From positions 3,658,001 through 3,722,000 of the forward strand of contig NZ_CP029008.1 in NCBI RefSeq assembly GCF_024585165.1: a stretch of 64,000 bases of DNA. The letters are read 5' to 3'. Shown here piece after piece: positions 6,762 through 37,461 of the stretch (the first letter of the stretch is position 1; every line of letters starts with the position of its first letter). The position numbers and the translations under genes were made by a program. Origin of the DNA: Bradyrhizobium sp. WBOS07. Lineage in GTDB: Bacteria > Pseudomonadota > Alphaproteobacteria > Rhizobiales > Xanthobacteraceae. The notes under the pieces were generated by a model, which was given only the letters and a program-made list of their open reading frames with translations, was not told the DNA's origin and made no database searches.

Positions 6762-7082
6762 TCAGGCCTGGCGTTCCGGCGTCGTCACGACGAGACCGTC
6801 GAGGTCGTCGGTGACCTTGATCTGGCAGGACAGGCGCGAATTCGGGCGCACGTCGAAGCCGAAGTCGAGCATGTCCTCTTCCATCGGGGTCGGGCTGCCG
6901 ACCTTCTCGCGCCAGGCTTCGTCGACATAGACATGGCAGGTCGCGCAGGCGCAGGCGCCGCCGCATTCGGCCTCGACCCCGGGAATGCTGTTGCGGATCG
7001 CGGCTTCCATCACGGTTGCGCCGTTCTCGATTTCCACCGTGCGGGTTTCGCCCTTGTGGTCGACAAAGTGAATCTTGGCCAT
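6762..7082 (-). CDS. [2Fe-2S] ferredoxin, adrenodoxin/FdxB type
   Basis: A 106-residue electron carrier. The cluster ligands are visible as CGGACACATC (C-x5-C-x2-C, with an additional Cys inside) and the distant Cys in LSCQIKV. The acidic stretch between them (DEAWREKVG..., EEDMLDF) is typical of ferredoxins that dock to reductases and cytochromes P450 or to the Fe-S assembly machinery. The start is the ATG at 7082, matching [11 protein letters not shown]; the upstream in-frame extension has no family support. The ferredoxin-NADP reductase at 5066-6094 on the same strand could reduce it. Confidence 0.93.
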
Positions 7083-7259
7083 GTGTGCTCGTGTTGCCGC
7101 GGTGCTGGGAATGAAGGAGGGTCCGGGCTGTCCTATAACGGGTCGATCAGCCCGGCGCCATAGGGTTTTGATGCGAAGTGAATGCCGCTTTGCGGCAAGA
7201 AAATGCGTCAAAACAAGAGGCTAAGACAAGAGCCTGGTATCCGGCTCGGCCGCGCGGTC

Positions 7260-7634
7260 TCAAGCCTTCAGGATCGCCTCGATGGCGGCGCGAGCCTCGG
7301 TCACCGCCTCCTTCAGCGCGGCGAAGGCGTGGCGCTCGTTATGGCCGATCTGGATCGCGGTCTCCAGGCTCGCGGCGGCATCGGCCACCGCAAAGGCGCC
7401 GATCCCGCGCGCCGACCCCTTGAGCTTGTGGGCAAGCGCGCCGGCCTCGGCCGGCAAGCCCGCCATCGCCGCCACCAGGCGGACCGCCTGCTCGGCGAAC
7501 ATGGCCAGCACTTCCTGCTCCAGCTCGGCGTCGCCGAGCGTCATCCGGGATAGATGGTCGAGGTCGAGCGGGCTGTCGATGGGTGCAAGCGGGGGCGAGG
7601 GCATCCAGTCCATCCGTTGCAGTTCAGGCGTCAT
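7260..7634 (-). CDS. Lone histidine phosphotransfer (Hpt) protein
   Basis: A 124-residue helical protein with the Hpt motif AHKLKGSARGIGA; the phosphorylatable His is at about residue 69. No kinase or receiver domain is attached, so it would act as a phosphorelay shuttle between a hybrid kinase and a response regulator encoded elsewhere. The ATG at 7634 is preferred; an ATG at 7652 and a TTG at 7697 would add 6 or 21 residues. Its upstream region is shared with the divergent GPR-like gene and holds CtrA-type sites, which hints at a cell-cycle link. Confidence 0.85.
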   Translation of the reverse strand: MTPELQRMDWMPSPPLAPIDSPLDLDHLSRMTLGDAELEQEVLAMFAEQAVRLVAAMAGLPAEAGALAHKLKGSARGIGAFAVADAAASLETAIQIGHNERHAFAALKEAVTEARAAIEAILKA

Positions 7635-7705
7635 GGCGAAAGGCCCCGGCATCGCGCGACGGTTCCGCCGGTCCGGCGGTGAGATCACTTCACCCAAGCA
7701 TGGAA

Positions 7706-8032: not shown

Positions 8033-11000
8033 ATGGCGAACACTCCGAAAAAGGTCAAAGACCCCACAGAAGTCGCGCTTTCTGCAATCCAGGAAGCCCT
8101 CAACATCAGCGACACCGCTGCAGATACCAGCCGCAACGCCGCGATGCGCAGCGAGACGGCGCCCCCGGTGACTCCTCCGGCCTTCGACGAGCCGAGCTTC
8201 GAGCCGCGCCCTGCCGCGAACGAACGCTCGACCGTGTTCGACCCGGTCGAGGAGCCGCGCGCCTCGCGTCGCGCAGCCAACGATGACCGCGAGACCATCG
8301 GCCAGCTGCTGCAGGCGCTGCAGAAGGGCCGCCCTGCCCGCAGCGTCTATACCTTCGCCACCATCTTCGCCGGCGTCTGGCTTGCCGCCTGCGCCGCGCT
8401 GACGTTCGGATTCCTGCCCTCGATCCAGGCCGCCATGGGCCAGAGCGGCGGCGTGCTCGTCATCGCCGGCCTGATCGCGATGTTCTTCGCGCCGATCATG
8501 CTGTTCTACTTCCTCGCCAGCCTGGTCTGGCGCGGCCAGGAAATGCGCATGATCGCGCAGGCGATGGCGCAGGTCGCGATCCGCTTCTCCGAGCCCGAGG
8601 GCTCGGCCTCCGATTCCATGGTCACCGTCGGCCAGGCCATCCGCCGCGAGGTCGCGGCGATGGGCGACGGCATCGAGCGCGCGATCGCGCGCGCCGGCGA
8701 GCTCGAGACGCTGGTCGCCAACGAGGTCGCCGCGCTCGAACGCGCCTATTCCGACAACGAAGTGCGCATCCGCGCCCTGCTCCAGGACATCGCGCATCAG
8801 CGCGACAACCTGGTCGGCCAGGCCGAGCAGGTCCGCAGCGCCATCTCCGGCGTGCAGATCGATCTGCGCCACGACATCGCGCTGATCTCGGACGCGATCG
8901 CCTCGCGCGTCGATGAGGTCGCCAAGTCCATCACCGGCGCGCTGGAAGAGCGCGGCGCCCACATCACCAGCGCGCTGAGCAATGCCGGCGACAACATGAT
9001 CCTGGCGCTCGGCGAGCGCGGCGGCGACCTGCTCGACCGCCTCGAAGAGGCCAGCAACGAGACCACGCGTGCCGTGCTCGACGCCAGCGAGCGGCTGACC
9101 ACCAGCCTCAACTTCAAGACCGGCCACGTCCACGACGAGTTCGTCGACCTCGCCGACCGCGTCCACGAGATGCTGAACGAGCGAATCGACCGCATCACCG
9201 GCGAATTCGAGCAGCGCTCGGCTGCGATCGTCGACGGCATCTCCGAGCGCACCGAGCAGGTGCACGACAGCCTGAAGAATTCGTCCGACTCGCTGCTACT
9301 CGAGCTCGAGCTGCGTTCCAACGACCTTTCCGCCAAGATCGACGACGCCGGCAACCGCCTCGCCGGCCAGATCATGACGAGCGGCGACAAGGCGAGCGAG
9401 GCGCTCGACGCCACCGTCAACACCCTGGTCGCCAAGGTCGTCAGCCAGACCGAGACCGCGCACGATTCGCTGTCGCTGCAGATGAGCGCGTTCGACGAAC
9501 TGGTCAGGAACCAGGGCACCGAGCTGGTCGAGAAATTCGCCCGCGATTCCGGCACGCTGGGCGCCCTGATCACGCGCCACATCTCCGAGTTCGACCGCAC
9601 CGTGAAGACCTTCGGCGGCGAGATCGTCGAACGCATGGGCCAGCGCACGCAGGACATCCATGAGTCGCTGAAGACCTATGTCGACAATTTCGACACCCGC
9701 TTCACCGCCAACGGCGGCGAGATCACCGCGATCCTCGACCAGCGCCTGGCGCAGTTCGAGACCACCATCGGCGAACGCGTCAGCAATTTCGACGCCTCGC
9801 TGAACGGCAAGATCACCGGCCTCGATTCCACGATCGAGGGCCACATCAAGACCTTCGACGAGCAGCTCGGCGGCCGCGTCACCGCGCTCGAGCAATCGTT
9901 CGACAGCCGTGCGAAGTCGATGACCGAGACGATCGACGGACGCATCAACACGCTCGCCTCGTCGCTGACCGACGGCGCCGCCCAGGCTATCCAGTCGATC
10001 GACAGCCGCCTCACCCACCTCACGAGCACGCTGACCGACGGCGCGTCGCAAACCATCCACTCGATCGATACGAGGCTGACGCATCTCACGACGACGCTCA
10101 CCGGCGGCGCGACGCAGGCGCTCGAATCGATCGACTCCCGCCTCACCTACCTGACCACCGCGGTGACGAACGGCGCATCGCAGGCCGTGCAGTCGATCGA
10201 CACGCGCCTGACGCTGCTGACCTCGACGCTCACCGACGGCACCGCGCAGGCGATCGAAGCGGTCGACCGCCGCATTACCGGCGTCACCGAGATCATCGAC
10301 GGCCGCAGCATGCACCTGACCGACACGGTCACCGCGCGCTTCCAGGAGATCCAGCAGGCCATCGAGACCAAGGTCGGCTCGGTCGCGAGCGACATCGACG
10401 TGCGCGTGGCGCAGTTCGAAGACCTGCTCGGCTCGCGCGTCGAGGCCGTTGCCGGCCGCATCGAAAGCAGCGGCCGCCAGGCCAGCGAGGACATGATGTC
10501 CCGCGCCGAGATGATCTCGACCGCGATCCGCTCGCATGTCGAGGACGCCGAGCGCTCGCTCACCAACCTCGTCGTCAACACCAGCGAGACGATCCAGACC
10601 GGCGCACGCGCCGCCCAGCAGTCGCTGATGACGGTCTCCTCCGACGTCAACGCCCAGCTCAAGATGACCTCCGCAGAGGTCGAACAGGCGTTGACCGCGG
10701 TCGGCACCGGTGCGGCGAACTCGATCCTGAGCAGCGCCCGCGAGGCGCAGTCGACCCTGGTCGCGGCGTCGGGCGAAGCCTCCACCCAGATCAAGGGGCT
10801 CGCGACCGACGTCGAGCGCACGCTCTCGGCGGCAGGCTCGGCCACCGCAGCCTCGATCCTGGCCGGCGCCCGCGAGGTGCAGACCACCCTCGTCACGGCG
10901 TCCTCGGACGCGGCCAACCACGTCAAGACGCTGACGGCCGACGTGCAGCGCTCGCTGTCGCTGGCCGGCACCACCACGGCAGAATCGATCACCGCCGGCG

Positions 11001-13795
11001 CCCGCGACGCGCAGAGCGCGCTGATCGCGGCCTCGAGCGAGACCGCCAACCAGATCAAGGCGCTGTCCTCAGACGTGCAGCGTTCGCTCACAATGGCCGG
11101 CACTTCGACCGCCGAGATCCTCACCACCGGGGCACGCGAAGCGCAGAACACGCTGGTCGCCGGCTCCGCGGATGCGGCGGCCCAGGTCAAGTCGCTCACC
11201 GCCGACGTGCAGCGCTCGCTCTCGATGGCCGGCACCTCGACCGCCGAAACGATCACGGCCGGCGCGCGTGAAGCGCAGAGCATGCTGGTCACGGCGTCGT
11301 CCGAGGCAGCCAACCAGGTCAAGTCGCTCGCGGCCGAGGTGCATCGTTCGCTCTCGCAGGTCGGCCAGTCGACCGCCGAGACCATCACCACCAGCGCCCG
11401 CGACGCCCAGAGCACCCTGCTCACGGTCTCGGCCGAGCAGACCAGCCAGGTCCGCTCGCTCGCAGCCGAGATGCAGCGCGCGCTGGCGACTGCCGGCGGC
11501 GCCACCATCGAGGCGCTGACCAGCGGCGTGCGCGAGGCCCAGGGCACGCTGATCACGGCTTCGACCGACGCGGCGACCCAGATCAAGTCGCTGACCACCG
11601 ACATCGAGCGCACGCTGACCGCGGTCGGCGCAGACACCGCCTCGACCATCCTCAACAGCGCGCGTGAGGCCCAGACCTCGCTGACCTCGACCTCGGCGGA
11701 CGCCGCGAGCCAGATCCGCACGATCTCGACCGAGATCGAGCGCACGCTGAGCGCGGCCGCCGCCAACGCGACCAACGACATCCAGACCAGCGCGCTCAAC
11801 GCCCAGAACGCGCTGATCTCGGCCTCCAACGAGGCGAGCTCGCGGGTCAAGTCGAGCTCGGCCGACGTCGAACGTTCGGTGCTCGCCGCCAGCTCCAGCT
11901 TCGGCCAGGCCATGACCGGCAAGACCGACGAGATCGTCACCTACGTGCAGCAGCAGGCCGACCGCCTGTCGAACATGATCGACGCCAAGCGCGGCGCCCT
12001 GGTCGACGCGATCGGCTCGAAGACCAGCCAGCTCACGCTCGACATCGACCGCGTCACCTCGGACGCGCTGAAGTCGATCGAGACGCGCGGCCAGGCCTTC
12101 TCGCAGACCATGATGGGCAACGGCTCGGAAGTCGCCCGCACCATCAACGCGGCGAGCGAGATCGCCACCAGCGCGGTCGGCAAGTCGCTCAAGGACCTCG
12201 AGCAGGCCTCGCGTTCGGCGATCGACCAGTCGCGCCAGGTCTCGGTCGCGGCCGTCACCGAGATGCAGGAGACCAGCAAGATCCTGCGCACCGACACCGT
12301 GGCGCTGTTCGAGCGTCTGCGCGAAGGCAACATCCTGCTCCAGGAAGTGCTGACCGGTGCGCACGACAACCTCAACTCGCTCGAGCGGGCGCTGGTGACG
12401 CGCGTCGCCGACTTCGTCTCGGCGATGAACGACGTCACCTCGCGCAACGGCGCGGCGACGCAGAACCTGGAAGAGCAGCTCAACGTCTTCAACAGCAAGA
12501 CCACGAAGGCGCTGCAGGATCTCGGCGAGCTGTCGACCCAGTTCGACGCGCACGGCAAGGCGCTGGTCGAGGCCGCCCAGGTCGTCGAGCAGAGCAACAA
12601 GAACACCACCGCCTCGCTCGCCGAGCGCAAGCAGGCGCTGGAATCGCTGGTCACCACGATCGACCTGCGCACCGCCGATCTCGACCAGCGGCTGTCGCGC
12701 TTCACCGGCCTGCTCGACGAATCGCTGGCCGCGGCCGAGGAGCGTGCCCGCGACATCGCCCGCGTCGTCGCCGAGACCGCCGGCGCCGGCTCGGCCGCGA
12801 TCACCCGCCAGTTCGAGGCGGTGCGCGTGGCCTCCGAGGAGGAGCACCGCCAGACCATCGAGGCGATGCACGACATCTACCGCCAGACCACGGACGAGGC
12901 GGACGCGATGTTCAAGCAGTCGACCGAGAAGTTCACCAACCTCGTCGCCAGCATGAAGCAGATGGCCCTCGAGATGCACAACGAGCTCGAAGCCACCCGC
13001 AACGAGCTGCGCCGCGGCGTGCTCGAGATGCCGCAGGAGGCCGCCGAGAGCACCGCGCAGATGCGCAAGGTGATCGTCGACCAGATCGAGGCGCTCGCCG
13101 AGCTGAACCGCATCGTGGCCCAGCACGGCCGCGGCCTCGACGTCACCACGGCGGGCCGCGCCTCCGTCGCCGTGCATCGCCAGGAAGAGCCGGTGATGGC
13201 CGTTGCGGCCGCTCGCGCGACCGAGACCCGCATGCGCGACACCGGCAGCGCCTCCACGCTGCCGCCGCCGGACCTCGGCATGCCGGCCGCGCGCCGCACC
13301 GAAGCGCCGCCGGTCGCGCCTTCCGGCAACGACCAGGGCCGTGACGGCTGGCTGTCGGACCTGCTCAGCCGGACCGACGCCAATCAGGGCGCCCCGACCG
13401 GACGTGAGGCTCCCCGTGGCCGCCCCGCGCCGCAGCCGCAGGCCCCGCAGGCCAGCAGCAATCCGCTGGAATCGCTGTCGCTCGACATCGGCCGGCTGAT
13501 GGACCGCAACCTCGCCGCCGAGATGTGGGACCGCTACCAGCGCGGCGAGAACAAGGCCTTCACCAAGCGCCTCTACACGCCCGCCGGTCAGAAGGCCTTC
13601 GACGAGGTCGCCCGCAAGTACCGCGCCGACCGCAACTTCAAGGGCACGGTCGACCGCTACGTCGCCGAGTTCGAGCGCCTGCTCGACGAAGTCGCCCGCG
13701 ACGGCCGCGGCCCGCAGGAGCTGCGCAGCCACCTGACCTCGGAGACGGGTCTGGTGTACACGCTGCTGGCGCATGCGGCGGGACGGCTGGGGTGA
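8033..13795 (+). CDS. Giant membrane-anchored repeat protein, GPR/RgsE-like polar growth scaffold
   Basis: A 1920-residue protein. Residues 1-100 are polar and probably cytoplasmic; two membrane helices follow (about 105-130 and 140-166). Then comes about 1500 residues of continuous Ala/Ser/Thr-rich helix without prolines, including five 22-residue repeats (645-754) and ten 44-residue repeats (843-1282) of the apolipoprotein A/E type. A proline-rich linker (about 1745-1815) leads to a compact conserved-looking C-terminal domain (about 1817-1920). This architecture matches the growth pole ring protein GPR of Agrobacterium and RgsE of Sinorhizobium, which form a ring at the growing pole needed for rod shape. 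The homology is inferred from size, order and repeat type; kinesin-like or chemoreceptor-like labels would be misleading. A strong terminator follows. Confidence 0.85.
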   Translation: MANTPKKVKDPTEVALSAIQEALNISDTAADTSRNAAMRSETAPPVTPPAFDEPSFEPRPAANERSTVFDPVEEPRASRRAANDDRETIGQLLQALQKGRPARSVYTFATIFAGVWLAACAALTFGFLPSIQAAMGQSGGVLVIAGLIAMFFAPIMLFYFLASLVWRGQEMRMIAQAMAQVAIRFSEPEGSASDSMVTVGQAIRREVAAMGDGIERAIARAGELETLVANEVAALERAYSDNEVRIRALLQDIAHQRDNLVGQAEQVRSAISGVQIDLRHDIALISDAIASRVDEVAKSITGALEERGAHITSALSNAGDNMILALGERGGDLLDRLEEASNETTRAVLDASERLTTSLNFKTGHVHDEFVDLADRVHEMLNERIDRITGEFEQRSAAIVDGISERTEQVHDSLKNSSDSLLLELELRSNDLSAKIDDAGNRLAGQIMTSGDKASEALDATVNTLVAKVVSQTETAHDSLSLQMSAFDELVRNQGTELVEKFARDSGTLGALITRHISEFDRTVKTFGGEIVERMGQRTQDIHESLKTYVDNFDTRFTANGGEITAILDQRLAQFETTIGERVSNFDASLNGKITGLDSTIEGHIKTFDEQLGGRVTALEQSFDSRAKSMTETIDGRINTLASSLTDGAAQAIQSIDSRLTHLTSTLTDGASQTIHSIDTRLTHLTTTLTGGATQALESIDSRLTYLTTAVTNGASQAVQSIDTRLTLLTSTLTDGTAQAIEAVDRRITGVTEIIDGRSMHLTDTVTARFQEIQQAIETKVGSVASDIDVRVAQFEDLLGSRVEAVAGRIESSGRQASEDMMSRAEMISTAIRSHVEDAERSLTNLVVNTSETIQTGARAAQQSLMTVSSDVNAQLKMTSAEVEQALTAVGTGAANSILSSAREAQSTLVAASGEASTQIKGLATDVERTLSAAGSATAASILAGAREVQTTLVTASSDAANHVKTLTADVQRSLSLAGTTTAESITAGARDAQSALIAASSETANQIKALSSDVQRSLTMAGTSTAEILTTGAREAQNTLVAGSADAAAQVKSLTADVQRSLSMAGTSTAETITAGAREAQSMLVTASSEAANQVKSLAAEVHRSLSQVGQSTAETITTSARDAQSTLLTVSAEQTSQVRSLAAEMQRALATAGGATIEALTSGVREAQGTLITASTDAATQIKSLTTDIERTLTAVGADTASTILNSAREAQTSLTSTSADAASQIRTISTEIERTLSAAAANATNDIQTSALNAQNALISASNEASSRVKSSSADVERSVLAASSSFGQAMTGKTDEIVTYVQQQADRLSNMIDAKRGALVDAIGSKTSQLTLDIDRVTSDALKSIETRGQAFSQTMMGNGSEVARTINAASEIATSAVGKSLKDLEQASRSAIDQSRQVSVAAVTEMQETSKILRTDTVALFERLREGNILLQEVLTGAHDNLNSLERALVTRVADFVSAMNDVTSRNGAATQNLEEQLNVFNSKTTKALQDLGELSTQFDAHGKALVEAAQVVEQSNKNTTASLAERKQALESLVTTIDLRTADLDQRLSRFTGLLDESLAAAEERARDIARVVAETAGAGSAAITRQFEAVRVASEEEHRQTIEAMHDIYRQTTDEADAMFKQSTEKFTNLVASMKQMALEMHNELEATRNELRRGVLEMPQEAAESTAQMRKVIVDQIEALAELNRIVAQHGRGLDVTTAGRASVAVHRQEEPVMAVAAARATETRMRDTGSASTLPPPDLGMPAARRTEAPPVAPSGNDQGRDGWLSDLLSRTDANQGAPTGREAPRGRPAPQPQAPQASSNPLESLSLDIGRLMDRNLAAEMWDRYQRGENKAFTKRLYTPAGQKAFDEVARKYRADRNFKGTVDRYVAEFERLLDEVARDGRGPQELRSHLTSETGLVYTLLAHAAGRLG
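9965..10294 (+). repeat. Five tandem 66-bp repeats coding 22-residue units
   Basis: Units such as LTDGASQTIHSIDTRLTHLTTT recur five times without gaps, covering residues 645-754 of the giant protein. The third unit starts LTGGATQALESID and the fifth has drifted (LTDGTAQAIEAVD). The 22-residue (two times 11) period is that of apolipoprotein amphipathic helices. Confidence 0.85.
10559..11878 (+). repeat. About ten tandem 132-bp repeats coding 44-residue units
   Basis: Each 44-residue unit follows the pattern L-x-x-A-G-x-x-T-A-x-x-I-x-x-G-A-R-E-A-Q-x-x-L, then an Ala/Ser-rich stretch, then a D/E-V-x-R-S end. Ten consecutive copies cover residues 843-1282; the central copies are most alike and the ends degenerate. 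44 equals four hendecads, consistent with a long amphipathic or right-handed coiled helix. Confidence 0.85.
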
Positions 13796-14026: not shown

Positions 14027-14893
14027 CTACCGTCTCGGCGCCGCCGCCGGCTTCGGCGGTTCGGGCGGCGGTGCGGGCTGTGACGAGTTGCTGGCGCCGA
14101 ACAGCACGCGGGTGGGGTTGCGGTCGAAATTGTTCACGGCGCGGCTGATGTCGCCGAGGGTGCGGCGGCCGTCGGCCATCAGCGCGCCGGAGCGCTTGTC
14201 GAAATCGTCGGCGAGCTCGCGGATCGACTTCACCGCCTGGAACAGTTCGCCGCCGTCCTTGCCGCCGGCCAGCGTGTTGAGGCCGAGCATGAGATTGTCG
14301 GCCTTGAGCATGACGCCGTCGACCTTGGCCATCACGCCGTCGATCTTCTCGGAATTGCGCGCCAGCGAGTTGGTGAAGGTCTCCAGATTCTTCAGCGAGT
14401 TCTTCACCGATTCCTGATTGTCGGCGACGATCTTGTTGACGTTCTGCAGCGTGGCGCGGATCGCCTCGGTGACGTCCTGCAGCTTGTTGGGATCGGCGGT
14501 GAGCGTCGGGATGCCGTCCTGGTCGAGCGGCGGCGGGGCTGCCGCCTCGTCGCCGCCCTTGAGCGAGATCGCGGCGACGCCGGTGAGACCCTGGAATTCG
14601 AGGCCGACCAGGGTGTCCTTGCGGATCGGGGCGTTGTTCTCGATCATCGCGAGTGCGACAACCCGCCGCGGATTGTCCAGCTTCACCGAGACCACTTCGC
14701 CCACCCGGATACCGTTGAAGTTGACGCTGCCGCCGTTGCGCAGGCCCGCCGCCGGGCCCTCGAACACGACACGCAAGGGGCTGCGCTGCTTGGTGGTATG
14801 CAGCGACTGAAACCACAGCACGAAGCCGATCGCCGCGGCGATCACCGCCAGCGTGAACGACCCGATCAAGATGTAGTTCGCCCGCGTTTCCAT
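14027..14893 (-). CDS. mlaD: MlaD-type MCE lipid-binding protein
   Basis: A 288-residue periplasmic, inner-membrane-anchored component of a phospholipid transport ABC system. One N-terminal helix (about residues 7-28) is followed by an MCE domain (about 38-115, with FNGIRVGEV and the GLTGVAAISL segment), then a long helical region (about 130-250) that in MCE hexamers forms the central tube, and a Pro-rich tail. It is the last gene of mlaE-mlaF-mlaD, 16 bases after mlaF. The system normally moves phospholipids between outer and inner membrane to keep outer-leaflet asymmetry; the direction and substrate are not visible here. Confidence 0.9.
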   Translation of the reverse strand: METRANYILIGSFTLAVIAAAIGFVLWFQSLHTTKQRSPLRVVFEGPAAGLRNGGSVNFNGIRVGEVVSVKLDNPRRVVALAMIENNAPIRKDTLVGLEFQGLTGVAAISLKGGDEAAAPPPLDQDGIPTLTADPNKLQDVTEAIRATLQNVNKIVADNQESVKNSLKNLETFTNSLARNSEKIDGVMAKVDGVMLKADNLMLGLNTLAGGKDGGELFQAVKSIRELADDFDKRSGALMADGRRTLGDISRAVNNFDRNPTRVLFGASNSSQPAPPPEPPKPAAAPRR

Positions 14894-14909
14894 CAGGTGC
14901 TCCGGCTAC

Positions 14910-15704
14910 TCAAGTCATGACCGCGCGGGCGCGCTTGCCATGGAAATACTGCCTCAACCAGGGATGCTGCGAGGCCTGCATGTCGGCGATCGACCCTGCC
15001 GCAATGATCTTACCGTTCCCTAAAACGGCGATGCGGTCACATGCTGTGTATAGGCTGTCGAGATCGTGGGTTACCATGAAAACCGTCAGCCCCAAAGTGC
15101 GTTGGAGCGTCCTGACCAACTCGTCGAAGTCGCCGGCGCCGATGGGATCGAGGCCCGAGGTCGGCTCGTCCAGGAAGACGAGGTCCGGATCGAGCGACAG
15201 CGCCCGCGCCAGCGCCACGCGCTTGATCATGCCGCCGGAGAGCTCGGACGGAAAGCGCTCGGCCACTTCCGGCTTGAGGCCGACCATGGCGAGCTTGGCC
15301 ATGGTGATCTCGTCCATCAGCCGCTGCGAGACCCGCAGATATTCGCGCATCGGAAACTGGATGTTCTGCCGCACCGTCAGCGAGGAGAACAGCGCGCCCT
15401 GCTGGAACAGCACGCCCCAGCGCCGCTCGACGTTGCGGCGCTGCGCGGTGCTCGATGAATCCAGGTCGACGCCGAACACCTCGATGGAGCCTGCGACCTT
15501 CGGCACGAGACCGATGATGGTGCGCGTCAGCACCGACTTGCCCGCGCCCGACGGGCCGACGAAGCCGAGGATCTCGCCGCGCTTGACGTCGAGGTTGAGG
15601 CCGTCGAGCACGCGCGTCGTGCCGAACTGCACGGTGATGCCGCGGACGCGGATGATGGGATTTTGAATCTCGCTTTGAATTTCTCTTTGAACTTCTCTTG
15701 CCAT
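14910..15704 (-). CDS. mlaF: MlaF-type ABC transporter ATPase
   Basis: ATPase of the MCE lipid transporter, 264 residues. It shows the Walker A motif GPSGAGKS, the signature LSGGMIKRVALARAL, the Walker B segment LVFLDEPTSGLDP and the H-loop MVTHDLD. The single-domain length and the SGGM signature variant fit the MlaF family. The start is ATG at 15704; an in-frame GTG at 15710 overlaps the stop of mlaE and is an alternative, as GTGACG precedes the ATG. It lies between the mlaE permease and mlaD on the same strand. Confidence 0.92.
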   Translation of the reverse strand: MAREVQREIQSEIQNPIIRVRGITVQFGTTRVLDGLNLDVKRGEILGFVGPSGAGKSVLTRTIIGLVPKVAGSIEVFGVDLDSSSTAQRRNVERRWGVLFQQGALFSSLTVRQNIQFPMREYLRVSQRLMDEITMAKLAMVGLKPEVAERFPSELSGGMIKRVALARALSLDPDLVFLDEPTSGLDPIGAGDFDELVRTLQRTLGLTVFMVTHDLDSLYTACDRIAVLGNGKIIAAGSIADMQASQHPWLRQYFHGKRARAVMT

Positions 15705-15706
15705 CG

Positions 15707-16840
15707 TCACATCCCGATCGAGGCGAAGAAGATGGCGAACACGCCGTCCATCACGATGACGAAGAAGATGCCCTTCACCACCGAGGCCGTGGTGTGCTGG
15801 CCCAGCGATTCCGCGCTGCCCTGCACGGCAAGCCCTTCGACGCAGGCAACGATGCCGATCACGGCCGCCATCACCGGGGCCTTGACGATGCCGACGATGA
15901 AATGATCGATCGAGATGGCGTCGCGCAGGCGCAGCAGGAAGGCCTCGGGCTCGACGCCGCCATAGAGCCAGGCCACCAGCCCGCCGCCATAGAGCGCGGC
16001 CATGGCGCCGAGGAAAGCCAGGATCGGCAGCGCCAGCACCAGCGCCATCATGCGCGGCAGCACCAGCACCTCGATCGGATCGAAGCCCATGGTGCGCAGC
16101 GCGTCGATCTCCTCGCGCATCTTCATCGAGCCGAGCTCGGCGGTGTAGGCGCTGCCCGAGCGGCCCGCGACCATGATCGCGACCAGCAACACGCCGATCT
16201 CGCGCAGCACCAGCACGCCGAGCATGTCGACCACGAAGATGTCGGCGCCGAACCGCCGGAAATGGAAGATGCCTTGCTGGGCGATGATGCAGCCGATCAG
16301 GAAGGTGATCAGCACGATGATCGGCACCGCGCGCCAGCAGACCTGCTCCATGTGGTGCACGGTCGAGGTCAGGCGGAACGAGCGCGGATGTATCAGCACG
16401 CGAAACCATGCCGCGAGCACGGCACCGAGCATGTCGACGAGGCCCGCGACCGTCCCGGCCAGGCCGGCCACGGTCCGGCCGATCTGCTCCAGCATGCCGG
16501 CGATGGTGATCGGGCTGCTGTCGACCACGGCCCCCGCCCTGACCCGCCGCACCTCGTCGACGAGGCTGGAATAATTGGCGGACAGCCCTGCGATCTGGGC
16601 CTCGACCGCGCCTTGGGTCAGGCTGCGGCGCAGCCGCTCGATCAGCCAGGCGCCGAAAGTGTCAAGCTTGGCGACTTCGGAGACGTCGATGAAGATGCTT
16701 TGGGGGCCGCCGGCGAGTTTCTCGGCGTCGGCGACCATCCGTTCCAGCGCCGGCGCGAAGCTCGCGGTCCAGGTCCCAGTGGCGCAAAGTGCCAGCGCGT
16801 TGCCCTTGGCAATCCGTTCCAGCTTCGGATCGCTATCCAA
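15707..16840 (-). CDS. mlaE: MlaE-type ABC permease with N-terminal STAS-like domain
   Basis: A 377-residue permease. Residues 1-110 form a soluble STAS-like domain (IFIDVSEVAKLDTFGAWL), as in rhizobial MlaE proteins that carry MlaB-like function in cis. The remaining part has about five membrane helices and the MlaE signatures, including GRSGSAYTAELGSM with the nearby EEIDALRTMG coupling segment. It is the first gene of the mlaEFD operon. The fusion removes the need for a separate MlaB, and no mlaB or mlaC gene is present here. Confidence 0.92.
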   Translation of the reverse strand: MDSDPKLERIAKGNALALCATGTWTASFAPALERMVADAEKLAGGPQSIFIDVSEVAKLDTFGAWLIERLRRSLTQGAVEAQIAGLSANYSSLVDEVRRVRAGAVVDSSPITIAGMLEQIGRTVAGLAGTVAGLVDMLGAVLAAWFRVLIHPRSFRLTSTVHHMEQVCWRAVPIIVLITFLIGCIIAQQGIFHFRRFGADIFVVDMLGVLVLREIGVLLVAIMVAGRSGSAYTAELGSMKMREEIDALRTMGFDPIEVLVLPRMMALVLALPILAFLGAMAALYGGGLVAWLYGGVEPEAFLLRLRDAISIDHFIVGIVKAPVMAAVIGIVACVEGLAVQGSAESLGQHTTASVVKGIFFVIVMDGVFAIFFASIGM

Positions 16841-16973: not shown

Positions 16974-17969
16974 ATGACTTCCACGAAATTTGCCTCCCTG
17001 GCGGCGCGAATCGAGCGCTTCCCGATCGCGGGCAGCTTCACCATCAGCCGCGGGGCGAAAACCGAGGCCGTGACCGTCATGGTGGAGGTCAGCCGGGACG
17101 GGCTGACCGGCCGCGGCGAGTGCGTGCCCTATCCCCGCTATGGCGAGACGCCCGAGGCGACGCTGGCGGCCATCCAGGCCATGCAGCAGGCCGTCGCCGA
17201 CGGTATCTCACGGCAGGCGCTCCAGGCCGCCATGGCGCCCGGCGCAGCCCGCAACGCCCTGGATTGCGCCCTGATCGACCTCGAGGCCAAGGCGGCGGGC
17301 TTGCGGGCCTGGAACTTGCTCGAGCGTCCGGTGCCGGGCGAGCGCACCACCGCCTACACGATCTCGTTAGGGGCCCCCGAGGCCATGGCGGAGGCGACCG
17401 CCAAGGCGGCGCACCGGCCGCTGCTCAAGATCAAGCTCGGCGGCGACGGCGATCCGGAACGGATCGCGGCGGTGCGCAAGGTCGCGCCCGAAGCCGAGCT
17501 GATCGTCGATGCCAACGAGGCCTGGACCGAAGCCAATCTGGAAGCCAACCTCGCCGCCTGCGCCGCCGTCGGCGTCATCCTAGTGGAGCAGCCGCTGCCG
17601 GCGGGCCGGGACGAGGCGCTGGCGCGGATCAAGCGGCCGCTCGCGGTCTGCGCCGACGAGAGCGTGCATGACCGCTCCTCGCTTGCACCCTTGCGCGAGC
17701 GCTACGACGCCGTGAACATCAAGCTCGACAAGACCGGCGGCCTCACCGAGGCGCTCGCGATGGCCGATGCGGCACAGGCACTCGGCTTCGAGATCATGAT
17801 CGGCTGCATGGTCGCGAGCTCGCTGTCGATGGCCCCGGCCATGCTGGTGACGCCGCAGGCGCGCTTCGTCGATCTCGACGGCCCGCTGTTGCTGGCACGC
17901 GACCGCGACCACGGGCTGCGTTACGACGGCAGCCTGGTCTATCCGCCGGACGCCTCGCTCTGGGGCTGA
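16974..17969 (+). CDS. L-Ala-D/L-Glu (dipeptide) epimerase, enolase superfamily
   Basis: A 331-residue enolase-superfamily enzyme. The pattern fits L-Ala-D/L-Glu epimerase: KIKLGG with the KxK base, metal ligands in VDANEAW, VEQP and CADES, and the second base Lys in INIKLDKTGG. The enzyme would convert L-Ala-D-Glu from recycled peptidoglycan into L-Ala-L-Glu for degradation. Other dipeptides are possible, as specificity varies in this family. Its 3' end overlaps the convergent MFS gene by 31 bases. Confidence 0.87.
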   Translation: MTSTKFASLAARIERFPIAGSFTISRGAKTEAVTVMVEVSRDGLTGRGECVPYPRYGETPEATLAAIQAMQQAVADGISRQALQAAMAPGAARNALDCALIDLEAKAAGLRAWNLLERPVPGERTTAYTISLGAPEAMAEATAKAAHRPLLKIKLGGDGDPERIAAVRKVAPEAELIVDANEAWTEANLEANLAACAAVGVILVEQPLPAGRDEALARIKRPLAVCADESVHDRSSLAPLRERYDAVNIKLDKTGGLTEALAMADAAQALGFEIMIGCMVASSLSMAPAMLVTPQARFVDLDGPLLLARDRDHGLRYDGSLVYPPDASLWG

Positions 17970-22193: not shown

Positions 22194-22357
22194 GTGACGG
22201 CGGCTCCTCTCAGCGATCGCTAACCATAGCAGGTTCCAAGCGTGATTCAGGTCACGTCCACCGCCATGGTGACAGGGATCACGGACCTCGCGCTCGAACG
22301 CGGCCAGGCTTGGTCGCAACCAATCTCGTATCGAGATGAGTGCCAAAGGAGCACGCC

Positions 22358-24157
22358 ATGTTCCGCCTAAAGCCTTTTTTGATGACGGCCGGCCTCGTGG
22401 GAAGCCTGTTCGGCTTCACCTGCGGGCCCGTTTCCGCGCAAGTCGCCCCGGTCCAGCCTGCCCCCACCGCGCTGCAAGGCCCGGAGCAGCGGGTGGCGCT
22501 GGTGATCGGCAATGCGAACTACCAGAGCGCGCCGCAGCTGGCGAACCCCGACGATGATGCCCAGTCGATCGCCCAGTTCCTGAATTCCGCCGGCTTCGAG
22601 GTGGTCGCAGCGACCGACCTGACCCAGAACGACATGCTGCGTGTCGTCCAGGACTTCTCCGCCAAGGTCGCTTCGCGCGGTCCGAACACGGTGGCGATGG
22701 TCTATTACGCCGGCCACGGCGTGCAGCTCGCCGGCGAGAACTATCTCGTTCCGGTCGACGCCAAGGTCTCCAGCCCGACCGAGCTCGTCAACAATTCAGT
22801 GCGCCTCGTCGACGTGATGTCGACACTGGAGACGATCCCGAGCCGCATGCGCATCGTCATCCTCGATGCCTGCCGCAACAACCCGTTCCCTGAGGTCAAC
22901 GACGCCGGCCGCGGCCTTGCCATCGTCGATGCGCCGAACGGCTCGATCGTCGGCTACTCGACCGCGCCGGGCGCCGAGGCGCTCGACGGCACGAGCGGCC
23001 ACAGCCCGTACACGCAAGCCTTCCTGAACGTGGCGCGCGAGCCCAACGTGCCGATCGAGCAGCTGTTCAAGCGCGTCCGCCTGCAGGTCAACCAGACCAC
23101 CAGCGGCGCGCAGATCCCGTGGGAGAGCTCCTCGCTCACGTCGGACTTCACCTTCTTCGGCGACACCGCTGTCGCCGCCAACCGCGCGCCGGTGAAAGCG
23201 CCGGTGGTGCAGATGGCCTCCAACCTGCCGAGCCGTTCGACGCGCCAAGCCTATGACTACGTCGTGTCCGAGGGCCGGCCGGAATATTATCAGGAGTTCA
23301 TCCGGATGTATCCGCACGACCCGCTGTGCGACCATGTCCGCTGGCTGCTCAACAACATCATGATCTCGCAGGCCTGGCACAAGACCGTGCTGGCGAACTC
23401 GCCAGTCGCGTACAAGAGCTTCTATGACAGCTACGGCAACAGCCCGTATGCGCAGGTCGCGCTGAAGCTGCAGGCGCAGCCGAAGCAGATCCCATTGATG
23501 CAGGCGACCAAGTTCCTGGCGCCGCAGACCATTGCTCCGACCATCAAGATCGGCAATCTCGGCCAGCCGAAATACATGCCGCTGCTGCAGCAGGGCAATG
23601 GCGGCGGTCAGCTCGATGGCAACCTGCCGATCGTGCAGAAGCCGATCGACGGCAATGTCATCGGCAAGCCCGGCAATGGCGGCCAGATCGTCAATCTGCC
23701 GGCTGGCAACAACAACCAGCAGAACGGCACGCCGTCGCAGACCCCGGGCAAGATCGTCACCCTGCCCGCGCCGACCACCACCAACAAGGGCGGCATCGGC
23801 AAGATCGTGACGCTGCCTGCGACCAGCAACAAGCCGGACGGCGGCAACGTCAATGGCAAGCCGGGCAAGATCGTGAGCATGCCGGTGAACGTCGGCAAGG
23901 GCGGCTCGACGATCGACGCAAAGCCGGTCGTTCAGACCCAGAACCAGCCGATCCGCGTCAACAACGGCAACACCGGCATCGTGAAGCTCAACAACAACCC
24001 GGTGAACAAGGTGCAGAACAACGTGCAGACCAACCGTCCGCAGCTGAACACGATGCCGAGCCGCATGGTCAACAGCAACAGCAACTTCCGGCAGTCGATG
24101 AACCAGGCGCCGAGCATGAGCAATGGCGGCAATCGCCGCAGCGGCTTCATGCGCTGA
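22358..24157 (+). CDS. Secreted caspase-like peptidase (orthocaspase) with Asn/Gly-rich tail
   Basis: A 599-residue protein. A signal peptide (residues 1-28) leads to a peptidase C14 p20 domain (about 43-270): RVALVIGNANYQ, catalytic His120 in YYAGHG and Cys172 in LDACRNNPF, both intact. A middle region (about 300-400) has a conserved-looking helical segment with paired Tyr (ASRQAYDYV-like, PEYYQEFIRMYP). The tail from about 420 is Asn/Gly/Lys/Pro-rich with recurring GKIVTLPA units. The start is ATG at 22358, after AAAGGAG; an upstream GTG at 22340 has no such site. It would act in the periplasm or outside. Substrate specificity after Arg/Lys is typical for the family but not demonstrated. 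Confidence 0.88.
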   Translation: MFRLKPFLMTAGLVGSLFGFTCGPVSAQVAPVQPAPTALQGPEQRVALVIGNANYQSAPQLANPDDDAQSIAQFLNSAGFEVVAATDLTQNDMLRVVQDFSAKVASRGPNTVAMVYYAGHGVQLAGENYLVPVDAKVSSPTELVNNSVRLVDVMSTLETIPSRMRIVILDACRNNPFPEVNDAGRGLAIVDAPNGSIVGYSTAPGAEALDGTSGHSPYTQAFLNVAREPNVPIEQLFKRVRLQVNQTTSGAQIPWESSSLTSDFTFFGDTAVAANRAPVKAPVVQMASNLPSRSTRQAYDYVVSEGRPEYYQEFIRMYPHDPLCDHVRWLLNNIMISQAWHKTVLANSPVAYKSFYDSYGNSPYAQVALKLQAQPKQIPLMQATKFLAPQTIAPTIKIGNLGQPKYMPLLQQGNGGGQLDGNLPIVQKPIDGNVIGKPGNGGQIVNLPAGNNNQQNGTPSQTPGKIVTLPAPTTTNKGGIGKIVTLPATSNKPDGGNVNGKPGKIVSMPVNVGKGGSTIDAKPVVQTQNQPIRVNNGNTGIVKLNNNPVNKVQNNVQTNRPQLNTMPSRMVNSNSNFRQSMNQAPSMSNGGNRRSGFMR

Positions 24158-35934: not shown

Positions 35935-37461
35935 TTAACCACGCACCAGGGAAACTAGCCAGCTACGGCCGAACAGGATGAGGATCGCGAGCGCGTAGAC
36001 GATGCTGCCGCCGACTGCGAGCAGGACGAGCATCAACTCATTGTGGAAATGCATCGAGGCGAGAGATGCAGCACCGAAGCGCGCGATCAGCCAGAACGCG
36101 GCGGCGAGGACGATCCCGGTCAGCAGGAATTTGCCCAGCGACGTCAGCCAGCCACGGTCCAGCACGAGAAAACCGCGCCGCACGGCGAAGAACAGGACCA
36201 GCAAGAGATTGGTCCAGACCCCGACGGCCGTTGCGAGCGCGAGGCCGATCTGCGCGAGCGATCCCATCAATGCGACCTTCAGCGCGACGTTGACGGCGAT
36301 GCCGGTCAGCGAGGCCCGCACCGGCGTCGCGGTGTCCTTGCGCGCGTAGAAGGTCGCGACTGCGCTGCGGATCAGAACGAACGGGATCAGGCCGATGGCG
36401 TAGGCCGCGAGCGTCGCGCCGGCCACGGCCGCGTCGGCCTGCGAAAACGCGCCGCGGGCGAACAGCGCCCGCATGATCTCGTCGGGCACGGTGAGGAAGG
36501 CCGCCACGAACGGAATCGAGAACAGCAACGTGAAATCGAAGGCGCGGCGCTGCGCCTTCATCGCGCCGTCCTGGTCATTCGCGGTGATCCGCCGCGACAT
36601 TTCCGGCAGCAGCACCGTGCCGATGGCGATGCCGATGACGCCGATCGGCAATTGATTGAGGCGGTCGGCGTAATACAGCGCCGAGAGCGCGCCGGCGGGC
36701 AGGAAGGTGGCGATGATGGTGTCGGCAAACAGCGCGAGCTGTGTGCCCATCGAGCCCAGCGTCGCCGGGCCCAGTGCCTTGAAGAAGTCGCGGACATCTT
36801 CGTCGAGCTTGAGCGGCGCAAAGCGCGGCAGGCCGCCGTGGCGCGCGAGATCGCCGGCGAGCAGGAAATATTGCAGGAAGCCGGAGATCAGCACGCCCCA
36901 GGCCGCGGCGTGGCCCGCGGTCGGAAACCAGGCGGCGAGCGCCAGCGTCATCATCATCGCGACGTTGAGGAAGATCGAGGCCGCCGCGGCGCTGGCAAAG
37001 CGCTGCATCACGTTGAGCATGCCGCCATAGAGCGTCACCAGCGTGATCAGCAGCAGATAGGGAAAGGTGATCCGGGTCAGCTCGATCGCGAGCTTGCGCT
37101 GCTCGGCGTCGTCGCTGAAGCCGGGCGCGAGAATGCTCATGGCCTGCGGCATGAACAGCCAGGCGACGATCAGCAGCAGAACCTGTGAGGCCAGGAGCAG
37201 CGTGAAGATGCGGTCGGCGAACAGATGAGCTGCCGCCTCCCCCTTCTCGCCATGGACATGGGCGTAGGCCGGCACCCAAGCGGCGTTGAAGGCGCCCTCG
37301 GCGAAGATCGCGCGGAAATGATTGGGCAGCCGCAGCGCCACGAAAAAGGCGTCGGCGACGGGACCAGCGCCGAGGATCGCCGCAAGCATGATGTCGCGGG
37401 CAAATCCCGTCAGCCGCGAGAGCAGCGTGTAGCCACCAACCGTGAAGATGCGTCCGAGCAT
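35935..37461 (-). CDS. murJ: Lipid II flippase MurJ
   Basis: A 508-residue polytopic protein of the MOP flippase superfamily that moves lipid II across the inner membrane for peptidoglycan synthesis. The MviN/MurJ signature is visible: LSRLTGFARDIMLAA near the start, ADAFFVALRLPNHFRAIFAEGAFNAAWVP with the essential basic and acidic residues, and about 14 membrane helices. The length is usual. The start is ATG at 37461. It sits upstream of a small ORF and terminator and downstream, across a repeat-rich gap, of the polysaccharide genes. Confidence 0.95.
   Translation of the reverse strand: MLGRIFTVGGYTLLSRLTGFARDIMLAAILGAGPVADAFFVALRLPNHFRAIFAEGAFNAAWVPAYAHVHGEKGEAAAHLFADRIFTLLLASQVLLLIVAWLFMPQAMSILAPGFSDDAEQRKLAIELTRITFPYLLLITLVTLYGGMLNVMQRFASAAAASIFLNVAMMMTLALAAWFPTAGHAAAWGVLISGFLQYFLLAGDLARHGGLPRFAPLKLDEDVRDFFKALGPATLGSMGTQLALFADTIIATFLPAGALSALYYADRLNQLPIGVIGIAIGTVLLPEMSRRITANDQDGAMKAQRRAFDFTLLFSIPFVAAFLTVPDEIMRALFARGAFSQADAAVAGATLAAYAIGLIPFVLIRSAVATFYARKDTATPVRASLTGIAVNVALKVALMGSLAQIGLALATAVGVWTNLLLVLFFAVRRGFLVLDRGWLTSLGKFLLTGIVLAAAFWLIARFGAASLASMHFHNELMLVLLAVGGSIVYALAILILFGRSWLVSLVRG

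Follow-up and report, generated by a model that had tools for sequence, protein, structure and literature searches.

The window, a 64,000-nucleotide stretch of the genome of Bradyrhizobium sp. WBOS07, contains a gene for a 1920-residue protein, most of which is a predicted helical rod. The locus raises two questions, to which family the protein belongs and how a rod of this length is put together. The sequence-only reading had placed the protein with the growth pole ring proteins GPR of Agrobacterium and RgsE of Sinorhizobium on the order of its parts. That order is confirmed, with membrane peaks followed by a proline-free rod of 1478 residues, a Pro-rich linker and a C-terminal domain. The gene and its parts are as follows.

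8033..13795, + strand, GPR/RgsE orthologue gene (ATG at 8033, uninterrupted frame of 1920 codons, 1920 residues)
8342..8533, + strand, two predicted membrane helices, residues ~104-131 and ~133-167 (from hydropathy; RgsE is homologous there)
8597..13030, + strand, helical rod, residues 189-1666 (1478 residues), delimited by the absence of proline
13190..13465, + strand, Pro-rich linker, residues ~1720-1811
13493..13792, + strand, C-terminal domain, residues 1821-1920, compact, with a predicted five-helix fold

The S. meliloti frame L156:13716-19985 (SMc00190, annotated 'kinesin') was located by tblastn and is taken as RgsE because its 2089 residues equal the RgsE length given in PMC7327166. 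Residues 1821-1918 of the window protein match the C-terminal end of RgsE with 53% identity (E 2e-32), and residues 24-210 match RgsE with 34% identity (E 3e-21); the best E among 50 shuffled decoys was 0.96 for these two segments. Shuffled decoys reached E 7e-9 for one rod segment, so that similarity of the rod alone is no evidence for homology. The first 328 residues of RgsE match a single place in the Bradyrhizobium genome, a single contig of 6.73 Mb, namely the gene at 8033-13795, which is single copy there; the best-scoring named loci for its product are from Bradyrhizobium. Similarity to GPR/RgsE in the coiled coil only had been named beforehand as the result that would speak against membership of the family. 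Compared with RgsE, the homology is found outside the coiled coil, at both ends of the protein, and it supports the proposed identity. The first 320 residues of the window protein are matched in 40 of 41 Rhizobiales genomes (40 families), at one place each, and the C-terminal domain was found in 156 of 159 Rhizobiales genomes; G036, G178 and G233 gave no match to it at E 0.001. It is present in 34 of the 36 Rhizobiales loci inspected, L123 being cut by a contig end and L136 being without the domain. L136 (from G036) encodes a rod protein of 1732 residues in which the C-terminal domain was not found.

AlphaFold2 (16 sequences) predicts five helices for the C-terminal domain, with a mean pLDDT of 87.8 for the best model and a range of 87.8-68.8 over five models. 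Foldseek against the PDB gave zero matches at E <= 0.001, and a PDB sequence search with the domain gave nothing convincing (best E 0.013, a designed protein). With Pfam, at E <= 1, any one family matched the domain in at most 3 of 35 members; the best E was 0.0029, in one member. Agrobacterium GPR is reported to require its last 221 residues for function (PMC8262873).

The genes on either side of the giant gene were compared among the Rhizobiales loci.

7260..7697, - strand, Hpt-domain gene, divergent from the GPR gene (Pfam)
6762..7211, - strand, 2Fe-2S gene (Pfam; found in 32 of 36 Rhizobiales loci)
14027..16840, - strand, MlaD, ABC ATPase (MlaF-like) and MlaE genes, convergent with the GPR gene (Pfam)
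16974-17969, + strand, MR_MLE (enolase superfamily) gene (near GPR in 22 of 36 Rhizobiales loci)

The synteny comparison proposed with the family assignment agrees with it. The order 2Fe-2S, Hpt, giant gene is the same in the window and at the S. meliloti rgsE locus, and in both the giant gene is transcribed away from the other two, which share a strand. An Hpt gene lies by the GPR gene in 30 of the 36 Rhizobiales loci, divergent in 28, and a divergent Hpt gene is found at 2 of 40 GPR-homologue loci of other alphaproteobacterial orders; polar growth could conceivably be linked to phosphotransfer. MlaD, the MlaF-like gene and MlaE occur together close to GPR in 13/36 Rhizobiales loci and in 6/40 loci of other orders, which points to a long-standing association with lipid-transport genes. 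Some members of the enolase superfamily are dipeptide epimerases in peptidoglycan recycling. Further along the window are a protein with a caspase (Peptidase_C14) domain at 22340-24157 (+ strand, E 1.5e-47) and a gene for the lipid II flippase MurJ at 35935-37461 (- strand), ~22 kb from the GPR gene. The S. meliloti sequence used here, CP090106.1 (L156, 3.7 Mb), is labelled plasmid pSymB; as it holds rgsE, fol and cytochrome bc1 genes, it may be a mislabelled chromosome. Homology and gene order together show that 8033-13795 is the Bradyrhizobium orthologue of RgsE/GPR. By analogy with these relatives, the protein would have a role in polar growth. RgsE of S. meliloti is reported to interact with TolQ, RgsA and RgsS (PMC7327166), and a membrane anchor, a ring and a deletion series have been published for Agrobacterium GPR (PMC8262873).

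The Pfam Apolipoprotein model PF01442 matches the 1920-residue protein in seven stretches (E 1.2e-60). Half of the control genomes (7 of 14) also give matches to it, below the cut-off; the match alone is therefore weak evidence, and we rejected it as proof of GPR/RgsE membership. Two NCBIfam models of ZorA, from the Zorya defence system, give weak matches (E 0.0011 and 0.024) and would make the protein a ZorA-like motor tail. This is extremely improbable, and the assignment was rejected: both matches fall within the coiled coil, their scores (17.3 and 13.6 bits) are below the respective cut-offs (190 and 500), and Pfam showed no ZorB-like product among the 20 frames of the window that were scanned.

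The rod itself has a regular internal structure, which is made up of the following elements.

8777..12178, + strand, 104 consecutive hendecads in a single register, residues 249-1382
9963..10267, + strand, tandem 66-bp (22-residue) array (TRF; identity 0.38 at lag 22 within residues 600-800)
10736..11923, + strand, nine 44-residue units, residues 902-1297

A hydrophobic stripe of period 11/3 runs unbroken through residues 249-1382. The hydrophobic power of the rod is 109.8 at a period of 3.664, 97.4 at exactly 11/3 and 2.9 at 3.6; the maximum in 20 shuffles was 8.6. One core position is occupied by V, I, L, M or F in all 104 hendecads (L44, I35, V16, F5, M4), and when the Pro-free rod was shuffled 300 times, such runs reached 9 at most. 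Measured in stretches of 66 residues, the phase keeps within -92 to -147 degrees for starts 255-1377 and is lost beyond residue ~1382. Over residues 255-1377 the two strongest core positions contain zero charged residues; across the wider run 249-1382 the second of them holds one Arg, and its commonest residue is alanine (28/104 hendecads). Only these two of the 11 positions are strongly hydrophobic, and Arg is found on one flank only. The net charge is -53 over the 1123 residues 255-1377 and -71 over the Pro-free rod, where Lys makes up 2.4%. At the DNA level, TRF reports 132-bp arrays (44-residue units) at 9952-10273, 10734-11616 and 11526-11763. The 22- and 44-residue arrays lie within the hendecad register, which also passes through stretches of low repeat identity. 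The sequence-only reading had suspected a lineage-specific repeat composition, and the numbers of 22- and 44-residue units do vary among Bradyrhizobium-group orthologues.

The length of the rod changes among orthologues in quanta of 11 residues. Length was measured from one anchor (residues 200-248) to another (residues 1390-1440), which needs no alignment within the rod. In all 80 orthologues the difference from the window is zero or a multiple of 11 (54/54 for the loci that passed an initial motif filter and 26/26 for the remainder, read separately); it is non-zero in 68 and ranges from -143 to +88. The frames of L007, L038, L052, L057 and L064 stop short of the C terminus and have both anchors. 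As the orthologues are related, the 80 differences represent fewer than 80 independent events. The lengths of two control segments scatter across most residues modulo 11. In alignments of 54 orthologues with the window, 121 of 130 indels in the rod are multiples of 11; outside the rod, none of 343 indels, 1-13 residues long, is. Merged net indels within residues 249-1382 are multiples of 11 in 121/121, 118/118, 119/121 and 107/123 cases at four gap settings, the lowest count coming from the setting harshest on long gaps. At one gap setting, 34 distinct classes of position and size were distinguished.

These quanta could reflect DNA slippage in tandem repeats alone, without selection on the register. 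The 66- and 132-bp arrays are present and many of the indels fall inside them. Their slippage alone would give steps of 22 and 44 residues; steps of 11 and 33 residues are also seen, the register continues where repeat identity is low, and the multiples of 11 among the merged indels within 249-1382 contrast with the 343 indels outside the rod. We regard slippage alone as quite unlikely.

Of 113 genomes sampled from other alphaproteobacterial orders, 45 are matched by a profile of the C-terminal domain built from 35 rows, at one place each except in G139, where there are two. Homologues beyond Rhizobiales have been reported in Emcibacterales and Rhodospirillales (PMC7327166). We read the rods at 40 loci from 39 of the 45 matching genomes. 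At least two N-terminal hydrophobic peaks are present at 32 of these loci, one at six and none at two, where the frames start at a contig or stretch end. The rods have a different register: 34 of 40 peak at periods of 3.558-3.588, near 25/7 (six of them at 3.580-3.588, between 25/7 and 18/5), and none peaks at 11/3. The strongest sequence lag is 25, 50 or 75 in 24 of the 30 other-order rods with more than 400 Pro-free residues. Among 35 Rhizobiales rods, 25 peak at 3.648-3.670, eight at 3.618-3.628 (near 29/8) and two elsewhere; L143 and L152 have near-equal power at two periods. By arithmetic, periods of 25/7, 29/8 and 11/3 would follow from repeats of 7+7+11, 7+11+11 and 11 residues.

Two uses of the stripe have to be weighed, packing against other rods and contact with lipid. 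The protein is probably anchored in the membrane and forms a nearly straight coiled coil of hendecads as a scaffold for polar growth, the mode of packing being deduced from the residue pattern. The N-terminal membrane helices would anchor the protein with both ends cytoplasmic. Rods would pack along the hydrophobic stripe to give a nearly straight coiled coil, whose 1134 residues at 0.15 nm each come to ~170 nm. Partners may be held by the linker and C-terminal domain. Partner chains would have to keep in step, so that length changes of 11n would survive. Hendecads are described as supercoiling very little, close packing requiring small core residues or higher oligomers, and the hendecad dimers FilP and Scy have an alanine-rich core (PMC9858780).

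Zupan et al. proposed a lipid-binding belt of the apolipoprotein kind, with the 11-residue-repeat helices of the rod lying on the membrane and sorting lipid at the growing pole. The PF01442 match and the nearby Mla-type genes, in Rhizobiales and in other orders, are in line with this. Apolipoprotein helices also have an 11-residue periodicity. Among seven other-order homologues, PF01442 matches two (best 39 bits, cut-off 90) and ApoLp-III four, once above the cut-off (36.6 against 36.3). These models match rods of period 25/7 as well as the 7 of 14 control genomes, and for this reason they say little about lipid. Lipid-binding apolipoproteins are characterised by a broad hydrophobic face with basic flanks. 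The window rod has neither, with a narrow stripe, Arg on one flank, few lysines and a strongly negative charge; the two hydrophobic positions of 11 and the net charge of -71 favour a stripe for packing over a lipid face. Quanta of 11 residues are also not obviously needed by a lone helix lying on the membrane. The lipid belt is in our view the less likely of the two, and rather doubtful in itself.

Some observations do not sit easily with a packed coiled coil. The 11/3 phase ends after residue ~1382, and the phase of RgsE drifts; both speak against it. GPR foci are 50 nm wide (PMC8262873), a poor fit to a fully extended rod. The same paper gives 600 nm for 1,700 extended residues; taken as alpha-helix with a rise of 0.15 nm, 1,700 residues would by arithmetic measure ~255 nm and the Pro-free stretch of the window protein ~222 nm. 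The published deletions can be compared with the register post hoc. The 20-residue deletion A-IV-4cc (21 in the abstract and methods) causes, to the authors' surprise, the severest interference with wild-type GPR and gives no paired foci, but alone it shows partial function and paired foci (PMC8262873). Mutant and wild-type rods might be out of step only when mixed, neither 20 nor 21 being a multiple of 11. The A-IV-1cc deletion, also of 20 residues, shows paired foci despite the wild type and complements well (PMC8262873), and it speaks against the register reading, which fits A-IV-4cc only. Since both 20-residue deletions give paired foci alone, ring formation tolerates a break in the register.

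Rgs proteins and MreB have been suggested to be mutually exclusive (PMC7327166). We called MreB at E <= 1e-60. By this threshold it is present in 18 of 159 Rhizobiales genomes, all of which have the GPR C-terminal domain. Frames of at least 1500 residues are found in 98/125 MreB-less and 0/16 MreB-bearing Rhizobiales genomes; for family medians of at least 1500 residues the counts are 24/35 and 0/8. Nine frames below 700 residues (two from MreB-bearing genomes) were dropped from the length count, nine of the 159 genomes have no listed length, and the lengths are those of open frames, possibly shortened by contig ends. Within Rhizobiales, long rods accompany MreB loss, as a correlation. It may represent one or few events, as the DnaK tree (38 genomes) is poorly resolved, with the outgroup not one clade and one (starred branches) to three independent pairs. 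There are MreB-bearing Rhizobiales with 11/3 rods (G037, G038 and G039) and MreB-less ones with short 29/8 rods (G030 and G033). Five of the 40 other-order frames reach at least 1500 residues (L170, L184, L197, L203 and L205), in genomes with MreB, so rod length does not everywhere track MreB loss. MreB is present in 37 of the 38 other-order genomes carrying the C-terminal domain that were searched for it.

This distribution also bears on whether the Bradyrhizobium protein acts in pole marking or division, like TipN, rather than in building a growth ring. GPR is reported to be similar to Caulobacter TipN (PMC8546619), which is a new-pole marker (PMC4460556), and the C-terminal domain occurs in those 45 other-order genomes, nearly all of the searched ones having MreB. 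Against a TipN-like role, nothing in the Bradyrhizobium genome matches MreB at E <= 1e-60 (the best, 2.7e-16, is taken as DnaK), its rod is of the 11/3 type as in RgsE, and depletion or overproduction of RgsE and of GPR is reported to alter cell shape similarly (PMC7327166). A TipN-like role in Bradyrhizobium is unlikely.

We offer a wider proposal tentatively as a possibility. The rods may be length-quantised spacers whose period passed from 25/7 in other orders (two heptads and a hendecad), via 29/8 in several short Rhizobiales rods (a heptad and two hendecads), to the pure hendecads of 11/3 as MreB was given up and tip growth adopted; 11-residue units would set the spacing of the growth ring. 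Scy of Streptomyces, a tip organiser with a hendecad rod of some thousand residues, would then be a parallel case of independent origin. Through the difference in register between the orders, rod structure would be tied to how tip growth evolved, as a correlation only.

The GPR family was already known; the new part is the register of hendecads, the length quanta of 11 residues and the differing register of the other orders, none of which was met in the openly licensed literature searched. The text of PMC8262873 does not contain 'hendecad', 'heptad', '11-mer', 'periodic' or 'repeat'. In the openly licensed literature, hendecads together with polar growth led to Gram-positive proteins, and hendecads together with alphaproteobacteria to none. 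A proteome-wide hendecad survey reportedly exists and may already mention the GPR family. The 11-residue steps and a core kept over 104 repeats bear on whether the 'apolipoprotein' helix of GPR meets lipid or other rods. The steps also suggest how such rods pack and evolve, and offer an account of one dominant-negative result.

Of the known systems, RgsE is alike in its membrane region, C-terminal domain, Pro-rich linker, long Pro-free rod with a period near 11/3, and neighbouring Hpt and 2Fe-2S genes. It differs in length (2089 against 1920 residues) and in its Pro-free stretch (1192 against 1478 residues), and its drifting register is less perfect, with a longest run of 61 hendecads against 104 in the window. 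Agrobacterium tumefaciens GPR (2115 residues), which is 42% identical to RgsE (PMC7327166), has the same order of parts, as judged from the description in PMC8262873. The homologues of other orders share the C-terminal domain, the N-terminal hydrophobic peaks and a long rod with the window protein, but differ in that their rods lie mostly near 25/7. The Streptomyces proteins Scy and FilP act at growing tips. They are described as heptad rods expanded by hendecads, Scy having more than 1000 residues in nearly all hendecads (PMC9858780). They differ from the window protein in a DivIVA-like N-terminal part; we claim no homology to GPR, and the likeness is at most a parallel.
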